Part shown: piece by piece, positions 12,183 through 35,063 of the stretch
How the letters are laid out: each line of letters begins with the position of its first letter
Numbering within the stretch: position 1 is the first letter of the stretch
Origin: Oscillospiraceae bacterium
GTDB taxonomy: Bacteria > Bacillota > Clostridia > Oscillospirales > CAG-272
NCBI GenBank assembly: GCA_015064205.1
Contig: SVSR01000007.1
Span: 1-55,960, forward strand
Reading direction: 5' to 3'
Length of the DNA: 55,960 bases
Translations under genes and position numbers: made by a program
Notes under the pieces: generated by a model
The model's input: the letters and a program-made list of their open reading frames with translations, nothing else
Told to the model about the DNA's origin: nothing
Databases searched by the model: none

Positions 12183-12234
12183 AAAAGGCAATCTCACAAA
12201 TGGGATTGCCTTTTTTGTGTTTTTGTGGTATAAT
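12183..12234 (+). promoter_or_regulatory. Terminator-promoter module A
   Basis: Terminator stem AAAAGGCAATCTCA (12183-12196) pairs with TGGGATTGCCTTTT (12201-12214), then a T-rich run. TTGCCT (12206-12211) inside the 3' arm is the -35 box. The T-run is the 17-base spacer, and TATAAT (12229-12234) with TGG before it is the -10. Confidence 0.85.
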
Positions 12235-28917: not shown

Positions 28918-28975
28918 AAAAATGACAACTTTATTTAAAAAGAGGGTTGCCATTTTTGTATTTTGCTGATACAAT
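28918..28975 (+). promoter_or_regulatory. Terminator-promoter module H
   Basis: AAAAATGACAAC (28918-28929) pairs with GTTGCCATTTTT (28946-28957) with a single A-C mismatch, as though the 5' arm is of the TGACAA type and the 3' arm of the TTGCCA type. TTGCCA (28947-28952) is the -35; after 17 bases, TACAAT (28970-28975) with TGA before it is the -10. Confidence 0.85.
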
Positions 28976-29015
28976 GTTCTTGTATGATTTTTATATAAGT
29001 AAATGAGGACATTGT

Positions 29016-30032
29016 ATGAAACTGAGCTTTGATAAAATCAAGGAAATTGCAACGGGTGCAGTATGTGCCGCAGAAGAAAACGGATATGTATATCTTCACA
29101 GATTTACCGATGGGCAAAGAGCGTTGTATTTTGAAACAAACAAAGACTTTTATGCAAAAGCGCTAACTGCTGCCGGAATTAAATTATCATTTAAAACCGA
29201 TAGTACAAGCCTTACACTTAAAGGCATAGTCGAACTTGGGCTTTCCAGACGTTATTACTCGTTTGATGTGTTTGTAAACGGTGAAGTAATAGGTTACATT
29301 GATAATTTTTCAATGAGGGAACTGCCGAAGTTCTACGTTGACGAGTATTTTGAACTTCCTCAAATCTTTGAAAAGACTTTTGAACTCGGCGAAGGCGAAA
29401 AGACGGTATGTGTGCATTTGCCATGGTCCGTTATTGTGAAACTTGAGGAAATATCGCTTGATGACGGTACATATGTACTGCCTGTAAAGCCTGTAAAAAA
29501 GCTTCTTGCATACGGTGACTCCATAACTCACGGATACGATGCGCTCCGTCCGTCTAATCGTTATATTGCGCGTCTTGCAGATAAGCTTGGAGCGGAAGAG
29601 ATAAACAAGGCGATAGGCGGGGAAATGTTTTTTGACAAGCTTGCAGAGCTTAAAGACGGTTTTATTCCGGATTACATAACCGTTGCATACGGTACCAATG
29701 ACTGGTCGATGTCAGATATAGATTCTTTCCGTAATCACTGCCGTGCTTTTTACACAAAGCTTTCAGAAAATTATCCCACGTCCAAAATATTTGCAATCAC
29801 ACCTATATGGCGCAGGGAAATGAGCGAATACAGAGTGTTTGGAAAGTTTGATCAGGTTGAAGAAGAGATCAGAAATATAGTAAACGGTATTGATAATATC
29901 ACTCTTGTGCGCGGATTTGACTTTGTACCAAAGGATGAAAATTTCTTTGCTGATTCAAGACTCCATCCGAATGATGATGGATTTGGGAACTACTTTGAGA
30001 ATTTGTACAAGCATATAAAAAAGAATCTTTGA
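29016..30032 (+). CDS. SGNH/GDSL hydrolase (carbohydrate esterase-like)
   Basis: A 338-residue protein in two parts. The N-terminal beta-rich domain (about 1-160) resembles the jelly-roll found before carbohydrate-esterase SGNH domains. The C-terminal SGNH hydrolase has LLAYGDSITHG (nucleophile Ser), NKAIGG (block II Gly), VAYGTNDWS (block III Asn) and DSRLHPNDDG (block V Asp-x-x-His). No signal peptide is seen, so it likely deacetylates imported sugars or oligosaccharides. It heads an operon with the EamA transporter and malic enzyme genes. Confidence 0.88.
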   Translation: MKLSFDKIKEIATGAVCAAEENGYVYLHRFTDGQRALYFETNKDFYAKALTAAGIKLSFKTDSTSLTLKGIVELGLSRRYYSFDVFVNGEVIGYIDNFSMRELPKFYVDEYFELPQIFEKTFELGEGEKTVCVHLPWSVIVKLEEISLDDGTYVLPVKPVKKLLAYGDSITHGYDALRPSNRYIARLADKLGAEEINKAIGGEMFFDKLAELKDGFIPDYITVAYGTNDWSMSDIDSFRNHCRAFYTKLSENYPTSKIFAITPIWRREMSEYRVFGKFDQVEEEIRNIVNGIDNITLVRGFDFVPKDENFFADSRLHPNDDGFGNYFENLYKHIKKNL

Positions 30033-30048
30033 TTTATGAGGTGCCGTT

Positions 30049-30921
30049 ATGAAGAAAGCATATTTGTTTGCAGGAATATCTATATTTTTCTGTTCAACCG
30101 TTTCGGTCACAACAAAAGTACTCCTCGGCTCGCTTAACAATTTTCAGCTTTTGTGGGCAAATGCCTTTTTTGCTTTTGTTTCTTTGATCGTTATTAACAT
30201 AGTAACAGGTAATATAAAAAGACTTAAAGAATATAAATTCAAAGACTACATAATATCTGTACTTATAGGACTTCCGGGTACATGCCTGTATTACATATTT
30301 TTTTATGCCGGAACAGATATGATGCCGGCGTCTCAGGCGTTTATTATAAATTATCTGTGGCCGATAATGAGCGTGCTGTTTGCTTGTATTATTTTGAAAG
30401 AAAAATTGACAGTACGAAAAATGATAGCAATACTGATGTCATTTATAGGCGTTATTATCGTTACCTTCAAGGGTGGCTTGGAGTTTGATGTAACAACACT
30501 TATAGGCGCCTCTTTTTGCGCGCTCGGCGCTGTTTCCTACGGGGTGTTTACTGCGCTTAATCAGAAAATGCAATATGATAGTCGAATATCAATGATGATA
30601 AATTTCTTTGTTACATTTATAATTACAAGCGTAATAAATGCTGTAAACGGAGATTTGTTTATACCAAGTGTGCTTCAGACACTTGGCTTTGCATACAGCG
30701 GAATATGCGCTATGGCAGTTACAAGCACACTCTGGATTATGGCGCTGAATCTCGGCGACACTGCAAAGATATCAAACCTTGCATATATAACACCGTTCTT
30801 ATCTCTTATACTGTCTGTTGTTATACTTAAAGAACAGTTTGAAATATCCTATATTATAGGACTTGCTTTTATTGTTCTCGGTATCTTTGTACAGCTTAAA
30901 GATAAAAAGGAAAAGACCTGA
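30049..30921 (+). CDS. DMT superfamily transporter (EamA family)
   Basis: A 290-residue protein with ten membrane helices in two EamA repeats, which fits the drug/metabolite transporter family. Recognisable segments are the end of repeat one (YLWPIMSVLFACIILKEKLT) and the end of repeat two (YITPFLSLILSVVILKEQF). Members export amino acids or other metabolites; the substrate is unknown. It starts 16 bases after the esterase gene with GAGGTG ahead of the start. Confidence 0.9.
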   Translation: MKKAYLFAGISIFFCSTVSVTTKVLLGSLNNFQLLWANAFFAFVSLIVINIVTGNIKRLKEYKFKDYIISVLIGLPGTCLYYIFFYAGTDMMPASQAFIINYLWPIMSVLFACIILKEKLTVRKMIAILMSFIGVIIVTFKGGLEFDVTTLIGASFCALGAVSYGVFTALNQKMQYDSRISMMINFFVTFIITSVINAVNGDLFIPSVLQTLGFAYSGICAMAVTSTLWIMALNLGDTAKISNLAYITPFLSLILSVVILKEQFEISYIIGLAFIVLGIFVQLKDKKEKT

Positions 30922-30942
30922 TTCTATTATAAGGAGACCATT

Positions 30943-32115
30943 ATGAATATAAGAGAAGAATCACTTAAAAAACATTATGAATGGAACGGAAAGATAGAAG
31001 TAATAGCACGTGCGCCTATAAATACAAGAGAGGACTTGTCGCTTGCATATACTCCAGGTGTGGCAGAGCCTTGCCTTGAAATACAAAAGGATATAAACAA
31101 GTCATATGAGCTTACACGCCGTTCAAATATCGTGGCAGTTGTAACAGACGGTACCGCAGTTCTCGGCCTTGGTGACATAGGCCCTGAAGCGGGTATGCCC
31201 GTTATGGAAGGAAAGTGTGCGCTTTTCAAAACCTTTGCTGACGTTGATGCGTTTCCTCTCTGCATAAAGTCTAAGGACGTTGACGAGATAGTCCGCACTA
31301 TATATCTCCTTTCGGGAAGCTTCGGCGGTATCAATCTTGAGGACATCTCCGCTCCCCGTTGCTTTGAAATCGAAAAAAGACTTAAGGAGATCTGTGATAT
31401 ACCGGTATTTCATGATGACCAGCACGGCACTGCAATAGTTGTTGCAGCGGCGCTTATAAATGCTCTTAAGCTTGTGAAGAAGGATATTCACAAAGTAAAG
31501 GTTGTCATAAACGGTGCAGGCTCGGCAGGTATTGCGATCGGTAAGCACCTTATGAATATCGGTGTGAAGAATCTGACCTTCTGCGACAGATTCGGTATCA
31601 TATGTGAGGGGGATGAAAACAATAACCCTGCGCAAGAGGAAATAGCGAAGATAACAAATCTTGAACATAAGAAAGGAAGCCTTGCAGATGCACTGAGCGG
31701 CGCTGACGTATTCGTTGGCGTTTCTGCACCGAATCTTGTGACACCCGAGATGGTAAAGTCGATGGCAAGTGACGCAATTATGTTCCCGATGGCAAATCCT
31801 ACACCCGAAATCATGCCTGACGTTGCAAAAGCGGCAGGAGCAAGAGTCGTTGGTACGGGAAGATCCGATTTCCCGAATCAGATAAACAACGTTCTTGCAT
31901 TCCCCGGAATTTTCCGAGGTGCGCTCGATTGCAGGGCGACTTGTATCAATGAAGAAATGAAGGTTGCAACGTCTTATGCTCTTGCATCTCTTATTCCTGA
32001 TGATGAGATAAGCGAGGATAATATTATCGCTTTGGCACTCGATAAGAGAGTTGCAGAGGTTGTTGCAAAGGCAGTTGTTAAAACTGCAAAAGAAACAGGC
32101 GTTGCAAGAATATAA
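30943..32115 (+). CDS. NAD(P)-dependent malic enzyme
   Basis: A 390-residue protein of the short bacterial malic enzyme type. It shows LAYTPGVAEPC, TDGTAVLGLGDIGPEAGMPVM, INLEDISAPRCFEIE and VFHDDQHGTAIV, a Rossmann site VVINGAGSAGIAIG, then PMANPTPEI and GRSDFPNQINNVLAFPG. It oxidatively decarboxylates malate to pyruvate. AAGGAGA lies before the start. Together with the hydro-lyase upstream it would turn fumarate into pyruvate, which the 2-oxoacid dehydrogenase in this window could then use. Confidence 0.95.
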   Translation: MNIREESLKKHYEWNGKIEVIARAPINTREDLSLAYTPGVAEPCLEIQKDINKSYELTRRSNIVAVVTDGTAVLGLGDIGPEAGMPVMEGKCALFKTFADVDAFPLCIKSKDVDEIVRTIYLLSGSFGGINLEDISAPRCFEIEKRLKEICDIPVFHDDQHGTAIVVAAALINALKLVKKDIHKVKVVINGAGSAGIAIGKHLMNIGVKNLTFCDRFGIICEGDENNNPAQEEIAKITNLEHKKGSLADALSGADVFVGVSAPNLVTPEMVKSMASDAIMFPMANPTPEIMPDVAKAAGARVVGTGRSDFPNQINNVLAFPGIFRGALDCRATCINEEMKVATSYALASLIPDDEISEDNIIALALDKRVAEVVAKAVVKTAKETGVARI

Positions 32116-32130
32116 AATTATTTTTAATAC

Positions 32131-32225
32131 TTGAAATATTTTACTCCGGATGTTATAATAAAAGAAACCAATGCCGCACGTGTTGCGGCGAAGCTAAGGA
32201 AGCTTTTGTTTATATCATCCGGAGT
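32131..32225 (+). promoter_or_regulatory. Promoter lying inside a long-range terminator stem
   Basis: TTGAAA (32131-32136), 17 bases and TATAAT (32154-32159) form a promoter. A perfect 10-base inverted repeat (ACTCCGGATG 32143-32152, CATCCGGAGT 32216-32225) is followed by TTTTAAATTT. Its 5' arm lies in the promoter spacer, upstream of the expected start of transcription near 32166. Two small hairpins lie inside: GCCGCA/TGCGGC (32173-32189) and AAGCT/AGCTT (32191-32205). RNA read through from the malic enzyme gene can form the closing stem and may terminate, whereas RNA begun at this promoter lacks the 5' arm and should escape. Confidence 0.68.
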
Positions 32226-32248
32226 TTTAAATTTAAGGAGAAAGTATT

Positions 32249-33388
32249 ATGAAGGTAACGGTAGCAATAGACTCTTTTAAGGGAAGTCTTTCGACTTTTG
32301 AGGCAGGAAAAGCCATATCAGAGGGAGTTATGCTTGCATATAAAGATGCAGAAGTATGCATACGTCCTCTTGCTGACGGCGGAGAGGGAACCGTTGATGC
32401 TGTTACGTATGCAACAGGCGGAGAACTTATCAAAATATCCGTACACGGTCCTCTTGATAAGAACGTTGAAGCAGTTTACGGTATAACACCCGACAAAACT
32501 GCAGTTATGGAAATGTCGGCGGCAGCAGGCATCACACTTGTAACTGATAAAGAAAGAAATCCTCTCAATACAACAACTTACGGCGTTGGTGAAATGATAG
32601 CTGACGCTGTAAAAAGAGGTTGCCGTAATTTTATAATCGGTATCGGCGGCAGCGCAACTAATGACGGCGGTATAGGTATGCTTCAGGCGCTTGGCTTTGA
32701 GTTTCTTGATAAATCCGGCAAAAATGTATCAATTGCCGGATGCGGACTTCGTGACATAGCTGAAATTCGTACAGATAAGGCAATGGCTGAAATCGAAGAA
32801 TGTACTTTTAATATAGCGTGTGACGTTAAAAATCCTCTCTGCGGCGACATCGGATGCAGCGCAGTGTTCGGCCCGCAAAAGGGTGCTACACCCCAAATCG
32901 TTAAGGAAATGGACTCCTGGCTTGAAAATTATGCGAATCTTACAAAAAAGGTTCTGCCGGACTCTGATGCAACAATACCCGGAACCGGTGCTGCAGGCGG
33001 ACTTGGATTTGCATTTATGTCATATCTTGGCGGTAAGCTTCAGTCGGGAATTGAACTTGTTATGGCGGCAACAGAACTTGAAAAATATATAGTTGATGCA
33101 GACGTTGTCGTAACGGGTGAAGGAAGACTTGATGGTCAGTCATATATGGGTAAAGCACCAATAGGCGTAGCGAAACTTGCGAAAAAGTACAACAAGCCTG
33201 TAATAGCTTTCTCGGGATGTGTTACCGATGATGCTGTTGTTTGTAACGAACACGGAATTGATGCATTCTTCCCGATACTCAGAACGCCTTGCACGCTTTC
33301 AGAAGCTATGGATATAAAAAATGCACACAAGAATCTACGTGATACGGCAGAGCAGGCATTCAAGCTTGTAAAAACATTCAAAAAATAG
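32249..33388 (+). CDS. Glycerate kinase (type I, GlxK/GarK-like)
   Basis: A 379-residue protein of the bacterial glycerate 2-kinase family. Conserved parts are the N-terminal VAIDSFKGSLS, ADGGEGTVDA, the Ala-rich ALMEMSAAAG-like segment (VMEMSAAAGITLV), GIGGSATNDGGIGMLQALG, DVKNPLCG, PGTGAAGGLGFA and GEGRLDGQSYMGKAP. It phosphorylates glycerate to 2-phosphoglycerate and so links sugar-acid breakdown (glucarate, galactarate or glyoxylate routes) to glycolysis. AAGGAGAAA precedes the start. GntP (26012) is a plausible importer of its substrate. Confidence 0.95.
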   Translation: MKVTVAIDSFKGSLSTFEAGKAISEGVMLAYKDAEVCIRPLADGGEGTVDAVTYATGGELIKISVHGPLDKNVEAVYGITPDKTAVMEMSAAAGITLVTDKERNPLNTTTYGVGEMIADAVKRGCRNFIIGIGGSATNDGGIGMLQALGFEFLDKSGKNVSIAGCGLRDIAEIRTDKAMAEIEECTFNIACDVKNPLCGDIGCSAVFGPQKGATPQIVKEMDSWLENYANLTKKVLPDSDATIPGTGAAGGLGFAFMSYLGGKLQSGIELVMAATELEKYIVDADVVVTGEGRLDGQSYMGKAPIGVAKLAKKYNKPVIAFSGCVTDDAVVCNEHGIDAFFPILRTPCTLSEAMDIKNAHKNLRDTAEQAFKLVKTFKK

Positions 33389-33414
33389 AACATATTCAAA
33401 AAAACGAACAAAAA

Positions 33415-33466
33415 ATAGCAAGTATCTTTTAGGGTGATTGCTATTTTTTTATTTATATGATAGAAT
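33415..33466 (+). promoter_or_regulatory. Terminator-promoter module I
   Basis: ATAGCAA (33415-33421) pairs with TTGCTAT (33438-33444), with A- and T-runs outside. TTGCTA (33438-33443) is the -35; 17 T-rich bases lead to TAGAAT (33461-33466), extended by TGA. The stem is shorter than in the other modules. Confidence 0.76.
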
Positions 33467-33518
33467 TGCCTTGTATAGCTGTTTAGGAATTAATAATATT
33501 ATAGTTGGAGTGTTGAAA

Positions 33519-35063
33519 ATGTACGATCTCATAATAAAAAACGGTATAATTGTAGACGGAACCGGGAGTCCTTCATATACTGCGAATATAGCTGTGAAAA
33601 ACGGTAAGATTGTTAAAATCGGAAAGAATTTAGATGGCGCAAAATCTGTAATAGATGCAAGTGGACTTACCGTTACTCCCGGATTTATTGATTCTCACAG
33701 TCATAGCGACAGAGCTGTATTTTACTGTCCAGATATGATAGAAAAAATCGAACAGGGTATAACTACGTCCATATCAGGTCAGTGCGGAGGCTCTATTGCA
33801 CCATGTAATGTTTCTGAAGAAAGTGATACATATATAGATGGTATTGGCAACTTGTCTGACGTACTAAAGACATTTTCGAGCTTTGCTGATGCAACCAAAA
33901 AGTTTCCCCTTGGCTCAAATAATGTGTGCCTTGTGGGACACGGCTCTATAAGAAAATGCGTTATGGGGATGAGTCAGGAAAAGCCCTCAGAAGAAGAGCT
34001 TGAAAAAATGAAGGCTTTGCTTCGTGATGCTATGGAAAGGGGTGCGCTTGGTATATCATTTGGGCTTATTTATCCGCCTAGCAGATATGCAGAAACTGAT
34101 GAACTGGTTGAAATTGCAAAAGTAGTCAAAGAATATGAAGGTATTGTTGCTGCACATATCAGAAGCGAAGGAGATAAGCTTATAGAAGCGACTGAGGAGT
34201 TTATATACATTATAAAAGAATCTGGAGTAAGAGGAATCCTTTCGCATCATAAGGCTTGCGGAGGTTCTAAAAATTTCGGAAAGGTAATCGATACGTTAAA
34301 ACTGATTGATAAAGCAAACGCAGAGGGTACTGAAATATATTTTGACGTATATCCGTATGTTGCAACTGCTACATCGGCGGCAGTAACGTTTGTGCCCGAT
34401 TCGGGAAGAGAGCTGCTTGAAAGACTTGGAAACCCTCAGGAACGCGAAAAAATCAGAGAATGGAATAAAACGAAATGGTGGGCAGACAACTGGTCATGGG
34501 TTCTGATTAACAAATCCGAGGGCTATCCCGAATATGAAGGAATGATGCTTACAGAAGCTGCAAAAATACATGGTAAGGATGAATGCGACACCATACTTGA
34601 TATAATATATAAAGGTAATGGCAGATGTACTTGTTGCTACTTTACGATGTGCGAGGAGGACGTTGAGCGGGTTATATCGCACCCGAGAGCAATGATATGC
34701 ACCGACTCGGGTGTTGCAGGAAGCAGAACCTCGTTTCATCCCAGACTCAAAGCTTCATTCCCGAGAGCACTTGGAAGATATGTAAGAGAGAAAGGTATAG
34801 TTTCTTTGCCTGAGATGATACGTAAAATGACGTCAATGCCTGCACGAGTTTACGGCCTTGAAACCAAAGGACTCATATGGGAGGGCATGGATGCGGACAT
34901 GTGTATATTTGATGCCGAAAGAATAATTGACTGCTCGGAATTTATGGATTGTAACAAACGTGCCGAGGGACTAAACTATGTTATCTTAAACGGTGAGATA
35001 GTAGCCCGTGATGCAGTATATAGCCAAAATAAGCAAGGCAAAGTAATTTTAGTTAACAGATAA
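33519..35063 (+). CDS. N-acyl-D-amino-acid deacylase (D-aminoacylase family)
   Basis: About 514 residues from the ATG at 33519 (GGAGTG upstream; the frame is open further up through the promoter and is rejected). It is an amidohydrolase-fold enzyme with metal ligands in PGFIDSHSHSD, the Cys in SGQCGGSIAP, HIRSEG, GILSHHKACGG and ICTDSGV, in the order found in D-aminoacylases. The enzyme hydrolyses N-acyl-D-amino acids to D-amino acids. Related dihydroorotase-like or N-acyl-D-glutamate forms cannot be excluded. The MATE exporter gene follows after 16 bases. Confidence 0.9.
   Translation: MYDLIIKNGIIVDGTGSPSYTANIAVKNGKIVKIGKNLDGAKSVIDASGLTVTPGFIDSHSHSDRAVFYCPDMIEKIEQGITTSISGQCGGSIAPCNVSEESDTYIDGIGNLSDVLKTFSSFADATKKFPLGSNNVCLVGHGSIRKCVMGMSQEKPSEEELEKMKALLRDAMERGALGISFGLIYPPSRYAETDELVEIAKVVKEYEGIVAAHIRSEGDKLIEATEEFIYIIKESGVRGILSHHKACGGSKNFGKVIDTLKLIDKANAEGTEIYFDVYPYVATATSAAVTFVPDSGRELLERLGNPQEREKIREWNKTKWWADNWSWVLINKSEGYPEYEGMMLTEAAKIHGKDECDTILDIIYKGNGRCTCCYFTMCEEDVERVISHPRAMICTDSGVAGSRTSFHPRLKASFPRALGRYVREKGIVSLPEMIRKMTSMPARVYGLETKGLIWEGMDADMCIFDAERIIDCSEFMDCNKRAEGLNYVILNGEIVARDAVYSQNKQGKVILVNR

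Follow-up and report, generated by a model that had tools for sequence, protein, structure and literature searches.

We found that the promoter of a glycerate kinase gene in an Oscillospiraceae bacterium overlaps the sequence encoding the 5' half of a predicted, long RNA hairpin, which only transcripts arriving from the malic enzyme gene upstream would be able to form. Both genes lie in a stretch of 55,960 nucleotides (contig SVSR01000007.1), all of which was analysed and is referred to here as the window. With the promoter nested in this way, local initiation would omit the 5' half, and the resulting transcripts would hold the 3' half only and elongate freely, while polymerase coming from malic enzyme would transcribe both halves. 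As the 3' arm exits the enzyme, a two-part stem of ~21 bp would snap shut just before a weak U-tract, and the stem would pause and partly terminate read-through, shielding glycerate kinase from the upstream operon; the same stop would close the malic enzyme message. We infer the position of +1, the termination and its efficiency, the last being probably partial and aided by NusA and NusG. More speculatively, the released polymerase could start again at the promoter ~70 bp behind. Overall, we judge it nearly an even matter that the nested promoter and its read-through hairpin make up a weak terminator or insulator that spares the local message. If this is true, the cell separates locally begun RNA from passing RNA solely by where the transcript starts.

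The malic enzyme stop (32115) and the glycerate kinase ATG (32249) are separated by 133 bases (Table 1). The promoter in this gap, TTGAAA-17-TATAAT (32131-32159), is of the sigma-A type, with 11 of 12 consensus matches and a TG before the -10 box. It had the top score among the 11 candidates in a scan of 30000-34500 (the number of candidates is itself uninformative, because shuffles of the region give 10.8 expected), and the exact pattern TTGAAA-N17-TATAAT occurs once in the window, against 0.06 expected. The sequence-only reading had described a perfect 10-base inverted repeat with its 5' arm between the -35 and -10 boxes, and this is exact: ACTCCGGATG at 32143-32152 and CATCCGGAGT at 32216-32225. 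It had placed the 3' arm about 60 bases past the start, a distance that we correct to ~50 bases after the expected +1 (~32166). The arms have no other copy in the window (0.08 expected) and no further exact copies in the 1.65-Mb assembly. A dispersed repeat or mobile element was considered for this site and rejected, with one full copy only in the assembly.

Table 1. Features of the malic enzyme/glycerate kinase boundary and of related elements nearby, in window coordinates
Feature	Position	Strand	Basis or remark
Malic enzyme gene, source of read-through RNA	30943..32115	+	ORF; Pfam malic + Malic_M
-35 box TTGAAA	32131..32136	+	promoter scan, exact-pattern search
Outer 5' arm ACTCCGGATG, within the -35/-10 spacer; final TG = extended -10	32143..32152	+	
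-10 box TATAAT, shared with inner 5' arm (32154-32164)	32154..32159	+	
Expected transcription start, 7 nt past the -10 box	32166	+	inferred from promoter position
Small leader hairpin 1 (GCCGCA / TGCGGC)	32173..32189	+	leader fold
Small leader hairpin 2 (GAAGCT / AGCTTT), predicted to be displaced once the long hairpin forms	32190..32206	+	folding
Inner 3' arm, partner of 32154-32164, one bulged base	32203..32214	+	folding
Outer 3' arm CATCCGGAGT	32216..32225	+	exact inverted repeat, folding
Weak T tract TTTAAATTT	32226..32234	+	T score 2.54
Shine-Dalgarno AAGGAG of glycerate kinase	32235..32240	+	
Glycerate kinase gene, ATG 32249	32249..33388	+	ORF; Pfam Gly_kinase 7e-145
Fused element of the upstream operon, -35 TTGCCA at 28947 in terminator 3' arm	28919..28975	+	one mismatch
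Second predicted structure of read-through RNA only: 28969-28983 (-10 region) paired with 29003-29017 (ribosome site and start of the SGNH hydrolase gene)	28969..29017	+	
Fused element downstream of glycerate kinase, at the following boundary; -35 box TTGCTA (33438)	33412..33466	+	
Ten fused elements (-35 starts)	12206, 14312, 17168, 21561, 22578, 25942, 27413, 28947, 33438, 41498		gap + pattern scans

RNA spanning 32116-32248, which holds both arms, folds at -40.8 kcal/mol (z -5.2, with 0 of 200 shuffles as good). The 10 base pairs of the arms noticed at first are present in this fold, but the stem is longer than they are: the outer pairs are followed by a 1x1 mismatch and an inner helix in which 32154-32164 forms 11 pairs with 32203-32214. 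Because this inner helix covers 32154-32164, the -10 box sits in the stem as well. Both 5' segments stop upstream of the expected start at ~32166, and a +1 near that position leaves the 5' half outside the local transcript, so only RNA entering from malic enzyme would fold the stem. RNA starting locally folds at -18.4 kcal/mol into two small hairpins (z -0.94, 31 of 200 shuffles as good). The proposal that malic enzyme read-through RNA carries both arms and local RNA the 3' arm alone is thus borne out for the predicted +1, with z-scores of -5.2 and -0.94, respectively. When RNA growing from 32116 was folded stepwise, local hairpins persisted until the 3' arm emerged, and the energy then changed from -19.4 kcal/mol at 32217 to -36.2 at 32226, where the arm pairs had a probability of 0.98. 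A switch to the long hairpin at 32217-32226 gives a timing that fits termination.

To what extent this pairing is unusual was assessed in several ways. The duplex between the promoter (-35 to +1) and the leader has an energy of -26.2 kcal/mol, and one as strong was found in 0 of 3000 dinucleotide-shuffled leaders and, in a larger run, in 2 of 40000; a perfect match of 10 bases is less telling by itself, since 25 of 5000 shuffles had one. Within a genome sample of 446,687 bases (the window plus 20 stretches, 27% of the assembly), the glycerate kinase promoter ranked 1st of 95 by z-score and, under a looser leader rule, 1st of 132 by energy. The promoter ranked second by z (L049) was examined as a further case and rejected, being a promoter look-alike inside an ordinary terminator. 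Cross-pairing of real promoters with the leaders of other genes gave 14 duplexes as strong in 17292, which corresponds to ~0.1 expected by chance in 132 promoters and ~0.4 genome-wide. Across the 132 promoters, the mean for own pairings (-10.9) barely exceeds that for cross-pairings (-10.6), and hence nesting of this kind is not a genome-wide habit. The pairing is unusual without being overwhelmingly so, and it is suggestive of selection without proving it.

Since 14 of the 17292 natural cross-pairings are as strong, chance has to be weighed as an explanation, namely that an internal promoter of a malic enzyme-glycerate kinase operon has a spacer that happens to match the leader, producing a hairpin without any selected role in an operon where read-through is tolerated. 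The small expected numbers just given leave room for one such case, the near equality of own and cross-pairings agrees with it, and so does the lack of conservation described below. However, the shuffles (2 of 40000), the highest rank in the genome sample and the layout of the pairing, which spans the arm and the -10 box and ends at the T-rich stretch right before the Shine-Dalgarno sequence, speak against chance, and we regard it as unlikely, if not markedly so.

Conservation of the arms in relatives, suggested as a check in the sequence-only reading, was not found where it could be looked for; among glycerate kinases, the six closest show no comparable pairing. Glycerate kinase matches (E up to 1e-30) were obtained in 28 of 59 family genomes and at 2 named loci, and the six closest with a readable start comprise four from the 28-genome set and the two named loci (L011-L014, L039 and L040). 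Another, L015, is about as close and was left out, its match starting at residue 81; among the 27 glycerate kinase loci that were printed, many minus-strand ones without a start codon seem misoriented and were not used. Three of the six relatives have a promoter with at least 9 of 12 matches within 200 nt, with duplexes of -10.2, -3.4 and -4.3, and the other three are without one. The malic enzyme gene turned up in one of three further genomes of this genus, none of which is complete. In that genome (G002), the only sister genome with the gene, the gene directly after malic enzyme encodes Lyase_1 and argininosuccinate lyase domains, and the pairing is absent there. A DNA search of 395 family genomes at E up to 0.001 found no second copy of the whole element. 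Six genomes gave a match at this threshold, our own among them; in the other five, three matches cover the promoter only (L064, L067 and L068, where closely similar promoters with TTGAAAT and ATGTTA precede apparent gene starts), two are not promoter-like by eye (L065 and L066), and the arm cores are absent within ~300 nt of the match in all five. Judging from these comparisons, which used one genome per species, the malic enzyme/glycerate kinase junction may be species-specific.

As noticed at the outset, T's do follow the 3' arm, but TTTAAATTT is a weak tract. Its T score of 2.54 lies at the 12th percentile of 74 terminator-like hairpins (from 136 gene ends of the genome sample) and between the 95th (2.17) and 99th (2.94) percentiles of the window background; with so weak a tract, partial termination would be expected. 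The stem is as stable as an intrinsic terminator calls for (-36 kcal/mol after the 3' arm emerges, z -5.2), and the loop is not compact, with 63 nt between the perfect arms. The gap between the two genes holds no compact plus-strand hairpin with a T score of at least 2.2. A compact terminator is found somewhere in the gap in 42 of the 62 tandem gaps with a promoter and is lacking in the remaining 20, so its lack here is not itself odd. Counted against the proposed mechanism are the distance of 63 nt between the outer arms and the need to displace local hairpin 2.

We also computed the cost of opening the ribosome site; the 19-nt costs were used for this site and for the element at 28947 only. 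Opening the 19 nt from the Shine-Dalgarno sequence to AUG takes 5.8 kcal/mol when the RNA starts locally and 4.7-5.4 when it is read-through RNA. In a second run the same region cost 4.2-4.5 in local RNA against 4.2-4.7 for starts at 31900-32100, and 5.5-6.2 kcal/mol for a start at 32116. Taken by itself, the Shine-Dalgarno sequence opens at 2.3-2.5 kcal/mol when the RNA is local and at 0.4-1.5 when it is read-through; for the start codon by itself, the two ranges are 2.4-2.7 and 0.8-1.5. Hiding of the ribosome site is not supported here, with no consistent occlusion in the opening-cost runs. Termination seems the likelier effect of the two because the stem completes before the T-rich stretch, in a gap without a compact terminator.

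The long stem could also act after transcription: as a target of RNase III or as a barrier at the 3' end, it would split the malic enzyme and glycerate kinase mRNAs with no termination involved. A long, mostly paired stem followed by a poor U-tract suits processing, or a block to exonucleases, no less than it suits termination; however, the T-rich stretch stands where a terminator would have one, and we consider processing distinctly improbable. Control at the level of DNA appears less probable still: the two TCCGGA palindromes that flank the start would be operators of a looping repressor, and their centres are 73 bp apart, a near-integral ~7 helical turns. Copies of the arm with up to one mismatch are somewhat more numerous in the assembly (55, two of them exact) than those of the reversed pattern (36), which counts in its favour, but the assembly holds no further exact copies, and the complementarity runs on through the -10 box, outside the palindromes, where looping does not need it. 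The least probable is a switch in the local leader, with the small hairpins sensing a ligand and choosing between a form that blocks the Shine-Dalgarno sequence and an open one, since, although both hairpins fold in the local leader and the 3' arm pairs weakly with the Shine-Dalgarno sequence there (the difference in opening cost given above), the leader folds no better than shuffles (31 of 200), has no counterpart at the six closest relatives and gives no Rfam match at E up to 1 in 32050-32320. The same results (leader fold z -0.94, no Rfam match) give no support to the ligand control once suggested for the two small hairpins, which we drop, and a riboswitch or other known leader RNA was rejected. 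Read on the minus strand (32189-32173), hairpin 1 has a T-rich tail behind it and counts as terminator-like by score; such sites number 3 against 3.3 in shuffles, i.e., no excess.

The closest precedent for a promoter nested in a read-through hairpin is gene e of phage T4. According to PMC3014915, late promoters lie there within the DNA that encodes the 5' strand of a hairpin with an inhibitory role in the RNA, and soc, 49 and I-TevI are given as sequestered as well. As in that description, the glycerate kinase promoter (32131-32159) lies in the DNA of the 5' strand (5' half 32143-32164, predicted +1 32166), and only upstream transcripts carry both strands. Unlike the gene e stem, which in the same text hides the ribosome site, ours does not do so consistently, and its predicted effect is on elongation. 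Nesting of a promoter in this way is thus known; the action proposed here, on elongation rather than on translation, is plausible but unproven. If true, the translation-level logic of T4 acts here on the elongation of an ordinary metabolic gene.

An intrinsic terminator resembles this site in having a strong GC-containing stem right before a T-rich stretch, after the stop of the upstream gene; it differs in that here 63 nt separate the outer arms, the U-tract is weak and interrupted, and a promoter lies in the stem. Read-through RNA is also folded off in Tn10/IS10 and in further insertion sequences. There too, incoming RNA alone forms the structure that protects the gene from outside transcription, but the block is translational and belongs to a transposon, whereas glycerate kinase is an ordinary metabolic gene without consistent occlusion of the ribosome site. 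In Bacillus subtilis, terminators whose U-tracts are interrupted receive support from NusA and NusG (PMC8060035). After termination, polymerase can start again at upstream or downstream promoters in vitro, as the available part of PMC6978380 reports. This recycling termination is similar to our case in that a terminator and a promoter are close together, so that released polymerase could start again nearby; the portions available of PMC6978380 and PMC11347151 deal with distances and kinetics and contain no promoter boxes in terminator stems. Our literature search, a narrow phrase search with few subscription journals, from which we claim no absence from print, found neither a cellular promoter nested in a terminator stem nor a -35 box in a terminator arm.

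Other gaps between tandem genes of the window contain a recurrent element in which a compact terminator carries the -35 box of the next promoter in its 3' arm, the U-tract runs into the promoter spacer, and an extended -10 box comes after. The -35 boxes are TTGCCA, TTGTCA, TTGCAA, TTGCTA or TTGCCT. Nine of these fused elements came from the gap scan and the one at 12206 from a pattern scan; the -35 box is fully paired in nine of the ten and has one mismatch in the element at 28947. The hairpin lies upstream of +1 in these ten, and ten fused boundaries with this arrangement make the insulator reading of the glycerate kinase site more plausible. There is an eleventh copy in the same genome (contig 36:6279) and one more in sister genome G002. 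The position on contig 36 is also the only one outside the window where the exact promoter pattern occurs in the assembly, and all 7 exact hits in the assembly have the -35 box in a hairpin, a check that is independent of hairpin selection. Hits with one mismatch have it in 3 of 13 cases, all three in the window, and the ten on other contigs showed no stable hairpin. Of 28 loci with the same pattern that were retrieved from relatives (L089-L116), two (L090 and L102) have it clearly in a hairpin and one (L108) weakly.

The arms of the fused elements covary. In an alignment of 11 sequences (A2), standard pairs make up 97.0% of the pair cells, against 87.9% in shuffles, and there are 16 two-sided changes against 4.0, with 0 of 500 shuffles reaching either measure. 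When the arms were dealt among 12 elements, with the 5' arm picked for best pairing, the true combinations gave 94 of 96 pairs against a mean of 85.5 (0 of 5000 as good). That 13 of the 94 pairs are G-U speaks for a constraint on RNA rather than for a DNA palindrome. These pairing statistics lean upward, since the elements in A2 and in the covariance model (R1) were partly picked for their hairpin and the 5' arm for its best pairing.

At E up to 0.01, R1 matches in 87 of 196 family genomes and 51 of 71 genera, our own included, a count to be taken as an upper view that includes plain hairpins, since the model also hits these hairpins when they are read on the opposite strand, as in 6 of 17 matches in the own genome. 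Of the best 30 R1 loci, 24 have a -35 box (at least 5 of 6 bases) in the 3' arm together with an extended -10 box; one of them is the element on contig 36 and the other 23 are in other genomes. The loci that bear these observations on fused elements are L075, L102, L123-L151 and L152-L154, the last three also containing clusters of such elements. Many R1 loci use a different arm sequence, ACCGCAA...TTGCGG. A first ORF of at least 60 codons lies within 250 nt at 21 of the 24 fused loci, and the downstream ORFs show no mutual blastp similarity at 1e-6, nor do the longest downstream and upstream ORFs. Nine loci of other genomes (L126, L127, L130-L134, L137 and L139) keep even the fused-element loop GATACAAA before unrelated genes; these look as if copied between genes, possibly as a mobile or reused promoter.

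At E up to 1, R1 gives 24 matches, and none of them is the glycerate kinase site, whose -35 box, TTGAAA, lies outside the main arms. This site does not belong to the fused elements; it follows their principle in a nested arrangement, with another geometry. The wider pattern of -35 boxes encoded in terminators is a more promising lead than the glycerate kinase site itself, and its covarying elements offer many natural cases in one family in which insulation, polymerase recycling or both can be probed. It is conceivable, although we lean against it, that operon boundaries of this family overlay a terminator and the next promoter, with a hairpin that forms only in read-through RNA and whose DNA supplies promoter boxes. 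The three forms seen here (-35 box in the 3' arm, the common one, with ten cases in the window and similar hits across the family; spacer and -10 box in the 5' strand, as at glycerate kinase; and the boundary at 28947-29017, with occlusion of the ribosome site in addition) would then add up to a code for insulation at the level of RNA, one that would also retain released polymerase at the promoter that follows.

The third form precedes the SGNH hydrolase gene. Its -10 region (28969-28983) can form a 15-base pairing with 29003-29017, which holds the ribosome site and start codon; the duplex of -22.0 is equalled by 61 of the 17292 cross-pairings. Opening of the ribosome site costs 5.2 kcal/mol in the local RNA and 7.4-10.4 when upstream RNA is present. 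Read-through RNA of this boundary would be poorly translated according to these folding predictions, a T4-like design, and the boundary (28947-29017) would resemble the gene e type as the accessible text of PMC3014915 presents it.

The region 12200-43601, rich in fused elements, contains many genes for organic acids and sugars among the 20 proteins scanned, including DctM and GntP permeases, both fumarase parts, malic enzyme, glycerate kinase and a LysR regulator. Positions 1-926 of the window carry the final part of a 23S rRNA gene, together with two genes each for 5S rRNA and tRNA.
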